Assembly: GCF_041320595.1 (NCBI RefSeq)
Contig: NZ_CP166625.1
Span: forward strand, 1,685,501-1,749,500
DNA length: 64,000 nt
Origin: Pleomorphomonas sp. PLEO
GTDB lineage: Bacteria; Pseudomonadota; Alphaproteobacteria; Rhizobiales; Pleomorphomonadaceae
Direction: 5' to 3'
The notes under the pieces were generated by a model, which was given only the letters and a program-made list of their open reading frames with translations, was not told where the DNA came from and ran no database searches. The translations under genes and the position numbers were made by a program. Positions 43,588 through 49,706 of this stretch are shown piece by piece (position 1 is the stretch's first letter; every line of letters begins with the position of its first letter).

Positions 43588-44273
43588 GCCCTATATCGGC
43601 CGATAGCTTCATCCTGCCTGAGGTTCCCATCACGCTGTCCTCCTCTGCGTAGGCAGAGGATCTCAGGACGAGAGGGCGCGGAGGGACGTATCAGGCGCCC
43701 GACGTGGTTGGAGCGTTATATCGGCTGGGAGCTTTATTCTGCCTGAGATCCTCTGCCTACGCAGAGGAGGACAGCTTTATATAGAGGGAACAGAGGGATA
43801 GCGCGTCGCCCTTCGTCTTGCGCCCGCTGCCATCATGCTGTCCTCCTCTGCGAAGGCAGAGGATCTCAGGACGAGAGGGCGCGGAGGGACGTATCAGGCG
43901 CTCGACGTGGTTGGAGCGCTATATCGGCCGGGAGATTCATCCTGCCTGAGATCCTCTGCCTACGCAGAGGAGGACAATTTTATATAGAGGGAACAAATGG
44001 GTAGCGCGTCGCCCGTCGTCTTGCGCCCGTTTCCATCATGCTGTCCTCCTCTGCGAAGGCAGAGGATCTCAGGACGAGAAGGCGCGGAGGGGCGTATCAG
44101 GCGCCCGAGGTTCCCATCATGCTGTCCTCCTCTGCGAAGGCAGAGGATCTCAGGACGAGAGGGCGCGGAGGGACGTATCCGGCGCCCGAGGTGCTTGGAG
44201 CGCACTATCGGCCGGGAGATTCATTCTGCCTGAGATCCTCTGCCTTCGCAGAGGAGGACAGGTTGGAGAACGT
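43588..44273. repeat. Cluster of paired-hairpin repeat halves
   Basis: Eight half-elements occupy this gap. Right-type halves lie at 43635-43667, 43838-43870, 44041-44073 and 44122-44154. Left-type halves lie at 43742-43774, 43945-43976 and 44229-44261, and the left half near 43610-43625 is truncated. Each holds the CCTCTGC-NNNN-GCAGAGG hairpin. Segments between a left and a right half repeat the same 60-bp spacer, and those between right and left repeat a 70-bp joint. The cluster grew by tandem duplication. Confidence 0.9.
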
Positions 44274-44306
44274 GAGGTAAGCTGCCGGCCTTGCGCGAGG
44301 ATTGTC

Positions 44307-45032: not shown

Positions 45033-45038
45033 GGGAGA

Positions 45039-45213
45039 CCGATATCGGCGTTGCGCTTCATTCTGCCCGAGGTCCTCTGCCTGCGCAGAGGATGACAGGT
45101 AATTTATATATATTAAACAGAATGTTAGCCGATCAGGAACCTTCACATCAAGCTGTCTTCCTCTGCGGAGGCAGAGGACCTCAGGAAGGTAGGGCGGGCG
45201 GCCGATATAGGGC
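45039..45213. repeat. Dispersed paired-hairpin repeat, copy D
   Basis: Ends are CCGATATCGG and CCGATATAGGG. Arms at 45066-45098 and 45153-45185 pair with small differences, each keeping its CCTCTGC/GCAGAGG hairpin. The spacer begins GTAATTTATATATA as in copy C. Confidence 0.85.
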
Positions 45214-45270
45214 ATCGGTTCGAACGTCGCTTGCCGGGCCGGCGGCGCGCCTCAGCCGTCCGTTGACCTC

Positions 45271-45427: not shown

Positions 45428-48010
45428 ATGACCAACATCGAACCGCGAACGGCTGCTCCAGCCGGCCTGACCGAGGATGAGGCCGCGCGCCGGTCGGCGG
45501 CCGAGGGCTTCAACGAGCTGCCGAGGGCGGAGCGCCGCACACCGCTGCGCATCATAGTCGAGGTTCTGCGCGAGCCGATGCTGGCGCTGCTGCTGGTGGG
45601 CGGTGGCGTCTATCTGCTGCTGGGCGATACGACGGAAGCGCTGGTGCTGCTCGCCTTCGCCACGCTGTCGGTGGCGATCACCGTCGTCCAGGAAAGCCGC
45701 ACCGAACGGGTGCTGGAAGCGCTGCGCGATCTGACCAGCCCGCGCGCCCTGGTGATCCGGGGCGGCGAGCGGCGGCGCATTGCCGGGCGCGAGGTGGTGC
45801 GCGGCGATGTTCTGGTGCTGGTGGAGGGCGACCGCGTGCCGGCCGACGCGATCCTCCTGCAAAGCCACGATCTGGAGACCGACGAGTCGCTGCTAACAGG
45901 CGAGTCCGTGCCGGTGGCCAAGGTTGCGACCGAGGCGGCGGCGGGCGGCGAAGTGCCCCGGCCGGGCGGCGAGGCGGTAGCCCATGTGTTTTCCGGCTCG
46001 CTGGTGGTGCGTGGCAGCGCGCTGGCCGAGGTGACGGCCATCGGCGTCAAAAGCGAAATCGGCAAGATCGGCGAGTCGCTCCAGTCCGTGGAGACCGAGG
46101 CGCCCCGCCTTCAGGCCCAGACCGGGCGCCTGGTGCGGGCCTTCGCGATGGTCGGCGGCGGCGTCACCGTTCTGGTGGTGGTGCTCTACGGCACGCTGCG
46201 CGGCGGTTGGCTCGACGGCCTGCTCGCCGGCATCGCCGTGGGCATGTCGATGCTGCCGGAAGAGTTCCCGGTGGTGCTGACGGTGTTCATGGCGATGGGC
46301 GCCTGGCGGATTTCTCAGGCGCGCGTTCTCACCCGCCGCGCAGCCGCCATCGAAACCCTGGGCTCGGCCACCGTGCTGTGCACCGACAAGACCGGCACGC
46401 TGACCGAAAACCGCATGTCGATCGCCCAATTGCGGCTGCCCGACGGAACGACGGCGGCCGCCGGCCCCGACCTTTCGCAAGCCTTCCGCGCGCTGGTCGA
46501 TGTCGGCGTGCTGGCCAGCGCCGAGGCGCCGACCGATCCGATGGAGAAAGCCTTTCACGACCTTGGCCGAACCCAGACCGCCGCGTCGCCGCCGCTCCCC
46601 AGCCATCTCGTCAGGGAATACGGGCTGCGGCCCGATCTTCTGGCCATGACCAACGTCTGGGCCGGGGAGCAAGAGGGCGGCGCGGCGCTGGCGGCCGCCA
46701 AGGGGGCGCCCGAGGCGATCGCCCGGCTCTGCCACTTCGACGAGGGGGCGCTGACCGCGCTGAAGGGCGAGGTGGACGCCCTGGCGGCGAGGGGATTGCG
46801 GGTGCTCGGCGTCGCCCGGGCGAGTGCCAGCGAGCCCTGGCCGGAGGACCAGTCCGGCTTTAGCTTCGAATTCCTCGGCCTGGTCGGCCTTGCCGATGGG
46901 CTGCGTGCCAGCGTGCCGGCGGCGGTTGCCGAGTGCCGCTCCGCCGGCATTTCGGTGGTGATGATCACCGGCGACTACCCGGCGACGGCGCGCGCCATCG
47001 CGGCGGCGGCCGGCATCGACACTGCCGACGTCGTCAGCGGCGGCGATCTGGAGCAGTTGGACGACGCGGCGCTGGCGGCGCGGGTGAAGACGGCGACGGT
47101 GTTCGCCCGCACCATGCCCGAGCAGAAGCTGCGCATCGTCAACGCCTTCAAGGCGGATGGCGCCGTGGTGGCCATGACCGGTGACGGCGTCAACGACGCG
47201 CCGTCGCTGAAGGCGGCGCATATCGGCATCGCCATGGGCGGGCGCGGCACCGACGTTGCCCGCGAGGCGGCCTCGATGGTTCTGCTCGACGACGATTTCG
47301 GCTCGATCGTCAAGGCGGTGCGGCTGGGGCGGCGCATCTACGACAACCTCGTCAAGGCCATGGGCTTCATCCTGGCCGTGCATGTGCCGATTGCCGGGCT
47401 GGCGCTGTTGCCGCTGCTGTTCGGCCTGCCCATCCTGTTCGGCCCGATGCACATCGCCTTCCTGGAAATGGTGATCGACCCGGTGTGCTCGCTGGTGTTC
47501 GAGGCCGAGACCGAGGAGGACGACGTGATGGCCCGGCCACCGCGCGACCCCGCCGAGCCGTTGTTCTCGCGCACCATGGTGATCTGGGGCGTGTTCCAGG
47601 GCGTGGTGGGCTTTGGCCTGGTGGCGGCGATCTATCTCATCGCGCTGTGGCGCGACACGCCGGTGGACGAGGTGCGGGCGCTGACCTTCTTCTCGCTGGT
47701 GTTCGTCATCATCGGCCTGATCCTGGTCGACCGCTCGTTCAGCTCCTCGGTGGTCATGGCGGTGCGCCGCCCCAACCGCACGCTTGTCGTCGTGCTCGTC
47801 GGTGTCACGGCGATGTTGGGCCTGACGCTCGGCTGGCCGGTGGCCCGGGAGCTGTTCCGCTTCGGCCCGCTGCACGCCAGCGACCTGGCGGTGACGGTGG
47901 GCGCCGGCGTCGCCGTGCTCCTGGTGCTGGAACTGATCAAGCCGCTGGTGCGCGCCGGGCTGAAACCGAGGAAGGCCGCCGTTGCCGGCCCAGGCAAGGC
48001 GTCAAAATGA
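45428..48010 (+). CDS. Cation-transporting P-type ATPase (P2-like)
   Basis: This 860-residue pump starts from the ATG at 45428. It has an N-terminal cation-ATPase domain, the actuator motif LLTGESVP, phosphorylation D320 in DKTGTLTENR, KGAPEAI for nucleotide binding, and hinge TGDGVNDAPSLKAAHIGIAMG. About ten TM helices are visible. TM4 carries PEEFPVV (P277) in place of the PEGLP of SERCA-type Ca pumps, and TM6 reads MVIDPVCSLVFEAE. The ion could be Ca2+, Mg2+ or Mn2+; the sequence does not decide. Confidence 0.92.
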   Translation: MTNIEPRTAAPAGLTEDEAARRSAAEGFNELPRAERRTPLRIIVEVLREPMLALLLVGGGVYLLLGDTTEALVLLAFATLSVAITVVQESRTERVLEALRDLTSPRALVIRGGERRRIAGREVVRGDVLVLVEGDRVPADAILLQSHDLETDESLLTGESVPVAKVATEAAAGGEVPRPGGEAVAHVFSGSLVVRGSALAEVTAIGVKSEIGKIGESLQSVETEAPRLQAQTGRLVRAFAMVGGGVTVLVVVLYGTLRGGWLDGLLAGIAVGMSMLPEEFPVVLTVFMAMGAWRISQARVLTRRAAAIETLGSATVLCTDKTGTLTENRMSIAQLRLPDGTTAAAGPDLSQAFRALVDVGVLASAEAPTDPMEKAFHDLGRTQTAASPPLPSHLVREYGLRPDLLAMTNVWAGEQEGGAALAAAKGAPEAIARLCHFDEGALTALKGEVDALAARGLRVLGVARASASEPWPEDQSGFSFEFLGLVGLADGLRASVPAAVAECRSAGISVVMITGDYPATARAIAAAAGIDTADVVSGGDLEQLDDAALAARVKTATVFARTMPEQKLRIVNAFKADGAVVAMTGDGVNDAPSLKAAHIGIAMGGRGTDVAREAASMVLLDDDFGSIVKAVRLGRRIYDNLVKAMGFILAVHVPIAGLALLPLLFGLPILFGPMHIAFLEMVIDPVCSLVFEAETEEDDVMARPPRDPAEPLFSRTMVIWGVFQGVVGFGLVAAIYLIALWRDTPVDEVRALTFFSLVFVIIGLILVDRSFSSSVVMAVRRPNRTLVVVLVGVTAMLGLTLGWPVARELFRFGPLHASDLAVTVGAGVAVLLVLELIKPLVRAGLKPRKAAVAGPGKASK

Positions 48011-48069
48011 GGGACGATGGTGGCATTTCGCCCTTGCGCCAACGGTCCGGTGGTGGCATTCCACCTGCC

Positions 48070-48120
48070 ATGAACGACTTGGCCAACCTCAGCCGTACCA
48101 CTTGGTGGCGCTCCTTCTAG
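48070..48120 (+). CDS. trpS leader peptide with tandem Trp codons
   Basis: A 16-codon frame, MNDLANLSRTTWWRSF, ends 108 bp before the tryptophanyl-tRNA synthetase start. Tandem TGG codons at 48103-48108 are improbable by chance in so short a frame, and such codons are the hallmark of Trp attenuation leaders. The peptide lies immediately upstream of and overlapping mutually exclusive hairpins. The ribosome site is weak (GGTGG 13 nt upstream), which is the main reservation. Confidence 0.65.
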   Translation: MNDLANLSRTTWWRSF

Positions 48121-48228
48121 GAGTGGCAGTCGTCATCTCGTGTTTGACCCTTGCCGCCGTGACGCGGCAAGATATGGACAAAATCTCCCCTCTCTTCCGA
48201 TCGCGGCGGCTCCTTTTTTGGAGCACCC
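48109..48228 (+). promoter_or_regulatory. Candidate Trp attenuator upstream of trpS
   Basis: CTCCT (48111-48115) can pair with AGGAG (48119-48123). The same AGGAG can pair with a second CTCCT (48210-48214). GCTCC (48209-48213) can pair over a T6 loop with GGAGC (48220-48224), which contains the trpS ribosome site. A separate 8-bp hairpin lies at 48150-48171, and its GCCGCCG can instead pair with CGGCGGC (48204-48210) just before the T-run. A ribosome stalled on the Trp codons would mask the first CTCCT and could free the ribosome site. Confidence 0.55.
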
Positions 48229-49272
48229 ATGTCCAACTCACGCCTTGAAAAGCCTGTCATCCTGACCGGCGATCGCACCACCGGCCCGCTTCACCTGGGC
48301 CACTACGCCGGCTCGCTGCAAAGCCGGGTGGCGCTGCAGGCAACGCACCGGCAATTCCTGCTGCTCGCCGACCTCCAAGCGCTGACCGACAATGCCCATG
48401 ACCCCGACAAGGTGCGGCGCAACGTGCTGGAGGTGGCCTTCGACTACCTCGCCGTCGGCATCGACCCCGCGCTGACCACCATCTGCGTCCAGTCGGCCCT
48501 GCCGGCGCTGGCCGAGCTGACCATGCTCTACATGAACTTCGTCACCGTCGCCCGCCTCGAGCGCAACCCGACCATCAAGACGGAGATCCAGCTGCGCGGC
48601 TTCGAGCGCGACGTGCCCGTCGGCTTCCTCTGCTACCCGGTGTCGCAGGCGGCCGACATCACGGCGTTCAAGGCCACCGTCGTGCCGGTGGGCGAGGATC
48701 AGGCGCCGCTGATCGAGCAGACCAACGAGATCGTCCGCCGGGTGAACCGCCAGATCGGCCACGACCTGCTGCCCGAAGCGGTGGCGATGATCCCCAAAGT
48801 CGGCCGCCTGCCCGGCATCGACGGCAAGGCCAAGATGAGCAAATCGCTGGGCAACGCCATTCCGCTCTCCGCCTCGGCGGACGACATCCGCGCCGCCGTC
48901 CGCCAGATGTACACCGACCCCAACCACCTCCGCGCCGCCGACCCCGGCTGCGTGGAGGGCAACGTCGTGTTCACCTATCTCGACGCCTTCTGCGAGGATG
49001 TTGGGGCGGTGGCGGACCTCAAGGCGCGTTACAGGCAAGGCGGCCTCGGCGACATGGTAGTGAAGCGCCAGTTGGAAGACGTGCTCCAAGCCCTGCTGGC
49101 GCCGATCCGCGAGAGAAGGGCGAGGTATGCGGCCGATCCGGGGTACGTTCTGGAGGTGCTGCGGCAGGGGACGGCGAAGGCGCGGGCGCGTACGGAGGAG
49201 ACGCTGGGCGAGGTGAGGGCGGGGTTGGGGCTGTTCAGCTTGGATGCAGGGCAAAGCGCGGCAGCCGAATGA
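48229..49272 (+). CDS. trpS: Tryptophanyl-tRNA synthetase, auxiliary-type
   Basis: This 347-residue class Ic synthetase charges tRNA-Trp. Its HIGH motif is [10 protein letters not shown] (residues 19-28) and its KMSKS motif is at residues 202-206. The opening [22 protein letters not shown] resembles the second-type enzymes (for example TrpRS II of Deinococcus) more than E. coli TrpS, so the organism may have another copy; such auxiliary enzymes can tolerate Trp analogues. The ATG at 48229 has GGAG 5 nt upstream inside a possible hairpin. Control by the Trp leader described at 48070 is inferred. Confidence 0.92.
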
Positions 49273-49336
49273 GGACGGGAAGGACGCGTGGGGGCGTGCT
49301 CACTCCGCGCCAAGTACCCCACTCGATACGCGGGAG

Positions 49337-49503
49337 ATCGATATCCGCCGGCCGCCCCATCCTGCCTGAGGTCCTCTGCCTGCGCAGAGGAAGACATGAT
49401 TATATATATGAAACAAATACTTAGCGTCTCATATAAATTGTCATGTCTTCCTCTGCGCAGGCAGAGGACCTCAGGCCGGATTGGGCAATCGGCGGATATA
49501 GGG
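49337..49503. repeat. Dispersed paired-hairpin repeat, copy E
   Basis: Ends are GATCGATATCC and GGATATAGGG. Arms at 49365-49396 and 49444-49475 are perfect complements over 32 bp, each with a CCTCTGC/GCAGAGG hairpin. The spacer ATTATATATATGAAACAAAT is close to those of copies B-D. No gene fills the remaining part of the gap to 49706. Confidence 0.85.
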
Positions 49504-49706
49504 TGCCAGATGGATGGCTTCCTGTTGCTCGGCACCGTGGGCGGCTGGGCCGCAAATCCCCGGCGATCCCGTTCGGCGCGCGCGGCAAGGTGGCGATCGG
49601 CCCGCCCGCCGATGCTGGCGTCTACGCAAAAACACCGATAGATTGGCCGCGAAAGGGGATCGGCCATGCAGACAATCGATGCCGAGGGCGCCTCATGGAG
49701 GGCGGC

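Follow-up and report, generated by a model that had tools for sequence, protein, structure and literature searches.

In Pleomorphomonas sp. PLEO, an auxiliary tryptophanyl-tRNA synthetase (TrpRS) gene, trpS2, appears to be controlled by a ribosome-mediated tryptophan attenuator whose output in this lineage is the initiation of translation, a reading to which we assign a probability of about 0.6. The gene lies in a stretch of 64,000 nucleotides, hereafter the window. It is preceded by a short leader reading frame with tandem Trp codons and by a set of competing hairpins, which together probably turn trpS2 on when charged tRNA-Trp runs short, a response to Trp-tRNA that we infer. The features of the locus, all on the forward (+) strand, are listed below with the observations on which each assignment rests.

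48034 to 48062, +, possible promoter: TTGCGC (48034 to 48039), 17 nt, CATTCC (48057 to 48062); suggested by modest positional enrichment
48070 to 48120, +, leader peptide ORF, MNDLANLSRTTWWRSF and stop; direct reading and conservation among related loci
48103 to 48108, +, tandem Trp codons TGG TGG; present in 24 of 24 aligned leaders of the window type, a count that is built in since these leaders had been picked for carrying TGG-TGG
48109 to 48114, +, segment 1, CGCTCC, the Arg-Ser codons, pairing with segment 2; covariation of 1:2
48120 to 48129, +, segment 2, GGAGTGGCAG, beginning within the stop codon, with segment 1 or 3 as partner; 1:2 and 2:3 pairing, early fold
48129 to 48136, +, segment 2b, GTCGTCAT, which may lengthen 2:3 and could also base-pair with the start of the leader; early fold, and a weak signal for the start pairing
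48146 to 48162, +, segment 3, extended on its 5' side, GACCC-TTGCCGCCGTGA, the strand that the switch pairings share; alignment, 3:5, 2:3, early fold
48163 to 48171, +, segment 4, CGCGGCAAG, forming hairpin 3:4, at the terminator position of other lineages and without a U-tract here; scan and U-tract count
48201 to 48210, +, segment 5, TCGCGGCGGC, predicted to pair with 3 or, when free, to help close the ribosome site; 3:5 covariation and modelled energies
48209 to 48213, +, segment 6, anti-Shine-Dalgarno GCTCC; 6:7 covariation
48214 to 48219, +, T6 run, forming the loop of the hairpin at the ribosome site; most of the 24 aligned relatives lack a T run here
48220 to 48224, +, segment 7, trpS Shine-Dalgarno GGAGC; direct reading and 6:7 covariation
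48229 to 49272, +, trpS2, auxiliary TrpRS of 347 aa without a Trp residue; TIGR00233 above cut-off

The Trp leader and the gene behind it

The trpS2 product scores above the TIGR00233 cut-off, and its closest sequence in the PDB is a TrpRS II, which we take to be the Deinococcus radiodurans enzyme. Another TrpRS elsewhere in the same genome (G000:C1:60544) scores stronger for TrpRS, so that trpS2 looks like an auxiliary copy, bearing out what the first-pass annotation had proposed. Only 5 of the 14 genomes of the genus carry trpS2, one copy being only 73% identical, which marks it as an accessory gene. Trp residues are absent from 67 of the 70 leader-bearing TrpRS-II proteins longer than 300 aa; the second TrpRS of the window's genome contains three. 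The idea that lack of Trp in the enzyme signals leader control was nevertheless rejected, because leaderless TrpRS-II proteins are mostly Trp-free too.

Direct reading and leader conservation confirm the 16-codon frame with tandem TGG codons that had been noted before trpS. It begins with the ATG at 48070, encodes MNDLANLSRTTWWRSF and ends with TAG at 48118–48120, within the intergenic stretch between trpS and an ORF ending at 48010, which from its sequence we presume to encode a P-type ATPase-like protein. Dispersed palindromic repeats (core CCTCTGCCTnCGCAGAGG, copies of 81–94 nt in both orientations) flank the ATPase-trpS block at 43913–44290, 45034–45221 and 49333–49511.

Three sources supplied TrpRS-II loci: 397 genomes of the order; 385 of the class, with the 30 best retained; and named genome contigs, with 80 retained as the best of a longer list. 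Among 127 loci (L003–L129), the 117 with a recognised start motif were counted and the 10 without one were excluded; a later look at these 10 revealed no leader with tandem TGG. An ATG-started ORF with TGG-TGG no more than 12 codons from its stop lies upstream of 71 of the 117 collected loci, as against 6 of 5850 dinucleotide shuffles of the same regions, and the TGG-TGG pair is thus conserved in relatives. These leaders are mostly 14–17 codons long, with WWRSF, WWRST, WWLAx, WWRA and WWRR as frequent endings, and are distributed over Rhizobiales, Rhodobacterales, Burkholderiales, Enterobacterales, Aeromonas, Alteromonas and other groups; those of L011, from a genome of the same order, and L027, from a Bradyrhizobium, are near-identical. 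A single Trp occupies the same place in the leader in at least six more loci (L009, L063, L066, L091, L096 and L101). An interrupted trpS2 copy (L020, in G194) still has an intact-looking WW leader.

The number of TrpRS genes was determined in 67 genomes, a gene with split hits being counted once and hits below the cut-off, probably TyrRS, being omitted; L069, with a possible single-Trp leader, lies outside this set. At least two TrpRS genes were found in 40 of 40 sampled genomes with a tandem-Trp leader, in 5 of 6 with a single-Trp leader and in 3 of 21 without a leader (L051, L070 and L089). A Fisher test of 40/0 against 3/18 gives p ~1e-12, to be read with the reservation that the genomes are not independent. 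TrpRS-II is the sole TrpRS, and the leader is absent, in the sampled Acinetobacter, Cupriavidus and reduced-genome alphaproteobacteria.

In the 71 leader-bearing upstream regions, two promoter-like blocks show modest positional enrichment: TTGC/TTGAC, some 35 nt ahead of the leader ATG, and a −10-like element whose end lies about 7 nt ahead of it. A strict promoter scan upstream of the leader found none, and direct reading revealed no Shine-Dalgarno-like stretch before the leader ATG of the window. Transcription may start at or next to this ATG, which would make the leader mRNA leaderless.

The leader start (48070–48078) can pair with GTCGTCAT (48129–48136) after the stop codon, and similar pairing with GTCGTCAT-like sequences occurs in many relatives. 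Against shuffles, 15 of 71 loci score 5/100 or better and the window does not; the signal is weak, and as a general feature this pairing is weakly supported.

Competing helices around the trpS ribosome site

The region 48070–48245 folds better than its shuffles (z −2.55; 3 of 200 as good). On direct reading, GCGCTCC (48108–48114) faces GGAG (48120–48123), a hairpin at 48151–48171 has the arms TTGCCGCCGTGA and CGCGGCAAG, and GCTCC, the T6 run and GGAGC directly precede the trpS ATG at 48229. Covariation was assessed in 24 window-type sequences picked by eye among the loci with a tandem-Trp leader (L009, L017, L020, L025, L044 and L101 excluded). Helix 1:2 shows 98.6% pairing, and 3 of its 6 pairs carry double changes; none of 500 shuffles reaches this percentage. 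Helix 3:5, with 11 positions (10 bp in the window, 48153–48162 with 48201–48210), is 95.4% paired with 20 double-changed cells; no shuffle of 500 reaches its percentage and 16 reach its 5 double-changed pairs. For the ribosome-site hairpin 6:7 pairing stands at 76.7% and 4 of 5 pairs carry double changes, the corresponding shuffle counts being 0 of 500 for the percentage and 40 of 500 for the double-changed pairs. Pairing 2:3 holds in 91.1% of cells without double changes, and hairpin 3:4 did not exceed shuffles in the covariation test on the same 24 leaders.

The covariation of 6:7, together with a Shine-Dalgarno sequence for which pairing prevails in all 24 window-type loci, upholds the earlier claim that the trpS ribosome site is masked. 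The first-pass annotation had also drawn a set of alternative pairings, and such pairings do exist, with covarying stems at 1:2, 3:5 and 6:7; the best-supported switch helix, 3:5, was not mentioned there, and the pairing on which that scheme turned, AGGAG (48119) with the second CTCCT (48210), did not hold up. According to that scheme, stalling would free AGGAG (48119–48123) to capture the anti-ribosome-site CTCC (48210–48213). The window and many relatives do have this complementarity, with pairing in 84.7% of cells, but covariation is absent: 254 of 500 shuffles match the percentage and 411 of 500 the covariation score. The complementarity is moreover broken where segment 2 has changed, as in L013 and L015, and is missing from the stalled-state folds of L003, L007, L011, L026 and L078. 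For lack of covariation 2:6 was rejected as a conserved switch, and we regard the capture as improbable.

How the leader ribosome could act on these helices was approached by modelling. In equilibrium folds of the 24 window-type loci the ribosome site is closed in every position of the leader ribosome (mean unpaired probability 0.13, 0.12 and 0.12), so that placing a ribosome on the leader, as the first-pass annotation had suggested, does not by itself open the site, and the idea that stalling opens it at equilibrium was dropped. Partial transcripts were scored for 69 of the 71 leaders. When the transcript extends to segment 3 and the ribosome is stalled on the Trp codons, all 69 loci show capture of segment 3 by segment 2, upstream of it; when the ribosome is at the stop codon, segment 3 pairs upstream in just 13 of 69. 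Once segment 4 has been made and segment 5 has not, 3:4 beats 2:3 at equilibrium even with a stalled ribosome; 2:3 wins in 10 of 69 loci (2 of 25 window-type, 8 of 44 others). The choice between 2:3 and 3:4 must therefore be kinetic.

The modelled cost of opening the stretch from Shine-Dalgarno sequence to ATG has a median of 12.0 kcal/mol with 3:4 and 5.25 kcal/mol with 3:5 in the 24 window-type loci (lower in 24 of 24), and of 12.0 and 4.7 kcal/mol in 41 other loci (lower in 40 of 41). The mean effect of 3:5 is 5.7 kcal/mol in the window type and 6.8 kcal/mol in the others, compared with 1.8 and 2.6 in shuffled spacers, 16% of which equal or exceed the real effect. In both groups strand 5, able to pair with 3, sits just before the ribosome site. 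In 49 of 65 loci no more than 1 of 30 shuffles equals the 3:5 duplex, a mark that the other 16 miss, and closure of the Shine-Dalgarno sequence is that clearly above shuffles in only 27 of 65. Opening-cost and shuffle scores cover 65 of the 71 leaders (six lacked a recognised Shine-Dalgarno sequence or 3:4), the window-type group here including L020 and not L014; one further set of modelled opening costs covers 23 of the 24 window-type loci. The rows of L010, L011, L018, L020, L027 and L106, whose 3:4 hairpin was probably wrongly assigned by the script, were kept in these counts.

From the opening costs, 3:5 is best read as an anti-sequestor (ON) and 3:4 as the OFF fold; our first idea, that 3:5 closes the site, was reversed, as 3:5 eases opening in the model. 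Masking segment 3 raises the modelled opening cost, and the ribosome site closes more tightly. Since 2:3 masks segment 3 in this way, the ON state depends on a presumed invasion of 3 by 5, and the modelled masking speaks against a simpler scheme in which 2:3 itself is ON at the translational level. The same result could be taken to favor the reverse logic, namely that stalling ties segment 3 into 2:3 and lets segment 5 close the ribosome site, so that Trp shortage turns trpS2 down. Against this, the same leader precedes U-tract hairpins elsewhere, where 2:3 would be ON, as it is in known trp attenuators, and repressing a spare TrpRS just when Trp-tRNA runs low would be hard to rationalize; we give this logic hardly any credence.

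Terminators, the proposed switch and a second user

At least 5 U in the 9 nt after 3:4 were found in a single one of the 24 window-type loci, other than the window itself, compared with 28 of 41 others, indicating that the same kind of sensor precedes a classical-looking terminator elsewhere and lacks it here. A simple terminator scan (loops of 3–8 only) found none in the window; it is blind to the 3:5 stem because the loop of that stem is long. Searches with Rfam 15 families, including the trp leader and T-box, gave no match in the window, nor in 48000–48300 even at E up to 10, and of 4 matches in 20 trpS2 loci none was at a trpS leader. The matches in other trpS2 loci include L034:5290-5337 and L057:1002-1078, which comprise a guanidine-II riboswitch and the end of a group II intron.

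The first-pass annotation had assigned a possible termination layer to the GC hairpin at 48150 and the T6 run. With the short-loop scan empty and the run not conserved in the window-type relatives, T6 was rejected as a terminator, and the layer is visible in other lineages instead. In a broader form of the same proposal, transcription is cut short under ample Trp, whether by 3:4, by the 3:5 stem with TCCTTTTTT behind it or by Rho, and the ribosome-site hairpin only lowers basal translation. It draws on the U-tracts after 3:4 behind the same kind of leader in other lineages, on the window's own 10-bp 3:5 stem with TCC and T6 behind it, and on a pyrimidine-rich stretch between segments 4 and 5, but the empty scan, the scarcity of T runs and U-tracts among window-type loci and the covariation of 6:7 count against it. 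We consider transcription attenuation at trpS2 doubtful, and translation initiation the probable output.

A switch of this kind would operate as follows. The leader mRNA may start at its own ATG. With plentiful Trp-tRNA, the leader ribosome would reach the stop codon and cover segment 2; segment 3 would then fold with 4, which may act as a kinetic trap, and segment 5, left free, would with 6 close the trpS ribosome site. Under Trp-tRNA shortage, such as inhibition of the housekeeping TrpRS could cause, the ribosome would stall at TGG-TGG, and segment 2 would capture 3 before 4 exists, 2:3 forming first in the modelled stalled state. The 3' part of segment 3 would remain open as a foothold from which segment 5 might invade 2:3. 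On modelled energies, the resulting 3:5 helix would more than halve the cost of opening the ribosome site, and by pulling segment 5 off that site it would allow trpS to be translated.

A covariance model of the window type was trained on the 24 loci. It recovers each of the 18 trpS2 genomes from the order search, 15 of which had served for training, and in the 385 genomes of the class it gave 4 matches besides the window, all before already-found trpS2 copies and two in the training set; refinding training loci (15 of 18 and 2 of 4) is no test of the model. The same architecture was detected before another gene, with a GTG start, in 8 further genomes from two other families of the order (L146–L148 and L150–L154, matches at about 1501–1631). 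There the leaders end in YWRFL or YWRFR and carry Tyr-Trp codons, as in MTTTAAPMLAKFYWRFL. Five of the 8 products were tested, and 5 of 5 match Pfam Isochorismatase; in NCBIfam, one of these isochorismatase-like proteins gave one weak match below cut-off and another gave none. The neighbors differ in the two loci examined, with trpE about 3.5 kb downstream in one (L163) and an ABC transporter gene in the other (L164). Three weaker matches of the model (E 0.001–0.006) look like chance.

Known attenuators and a possible role of a spare TrpRS

Taken across Proteobacteria, the observations are compatible with a two-stage attenuator, a proposal whose odds we judge to be even. Segment 3 would choose among an anti-terminator (2), a terminator (4) and an anti-sequestor (5), and one stalled ribosome would control both transcription and ribosome-site exposure of the spare TrpRS. 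In the window's lineage the terminator would have been lost, leaving a purely translational device, which some genomes of the same order would use on an isochorismatase-like gene with a Tyr-Trp leader.

The first-pass annotation knew of no such arrangement, with ribosome-site masking, on an auxiliary TrpRS. Attenuation as such has a precedent there, as Vecchione and Sello reportedly described in 2010 an auxiliary TrpRS under ribosome-mediated attenuation in Streptomyces coelicolor. For Actinobacteria, PMC1262725 and PMC8079986 give known or predicted cases of trpS attenuation by a Trp leader. The S. coelicolor auxiliary trpS, S. avermitilis trpS2 and S. lividans trpL2 leaders resemble the window in placing trpS behind a short leader ORF with Trp codons. 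They differ in being actinobacterial and in being described as transcription attenuation or as classical attenuators, whereas the window has a proteobacterial TrpRS of type II behind a probable ribosome-site switch.

The leader peptide of Bacillus subtilis rtpA (anti-TRAP; Chen and Yanofsky 2003/2004) is like the window in that tRNA-dependent stalling controls translation of the next gene, and according to PMC11255114 it has a transcriptional layer too, a T-box. The window would instead exchange RNA segments over ~100 nt. At rtpA, terminating ribosomes are said to occlude the next start.

In Sinorhizobium meliloti, also an alphaproteobacterium, the trpL transcript is leaderless and starts at the ATG of its Trp ORF, with antiterminator set against terminator in trpL-trpE(G) (rnTrpL, peTrpL); its output, unlike that of the window, is a terminator acting on a biosynthesis gene, and the excerpts of PMC7298713 mention no ribosome-site switch. 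Lopatovskaya et al. 2010, as summarized by PMC4833913, predicted attenuators of aminoacyl-tRNA synthetase operons, including a mechanism overlapping the ribosome-binding site; the subject matter is the same, and that work may already list some of these leaders. In Caulobacter, ribosome profiling pointed to a putative small leader CDS on trpS mRNA (PMC4117421). A literature search with little subscription coverage found no description of such an RNA architecture in Proteobacteria.

If the reading is true, a classical attenuator has kept its sensor and swapped its output from stopping transcription to hiding the ribosome site, with both kinds extant, and the natural leader variants form a family in which ribosome-RNA folding kinetics could be tested. 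The same reading would account for the way a spare TrpRS is kept silent and called up when the main enzyme fails, for instance under TrpRS inhibitors. HipA-type kinases are reported in PMC8545095 and PMC6581861 to act on TrpRS, and under such kinases a spare TrpRS would be of use as well.
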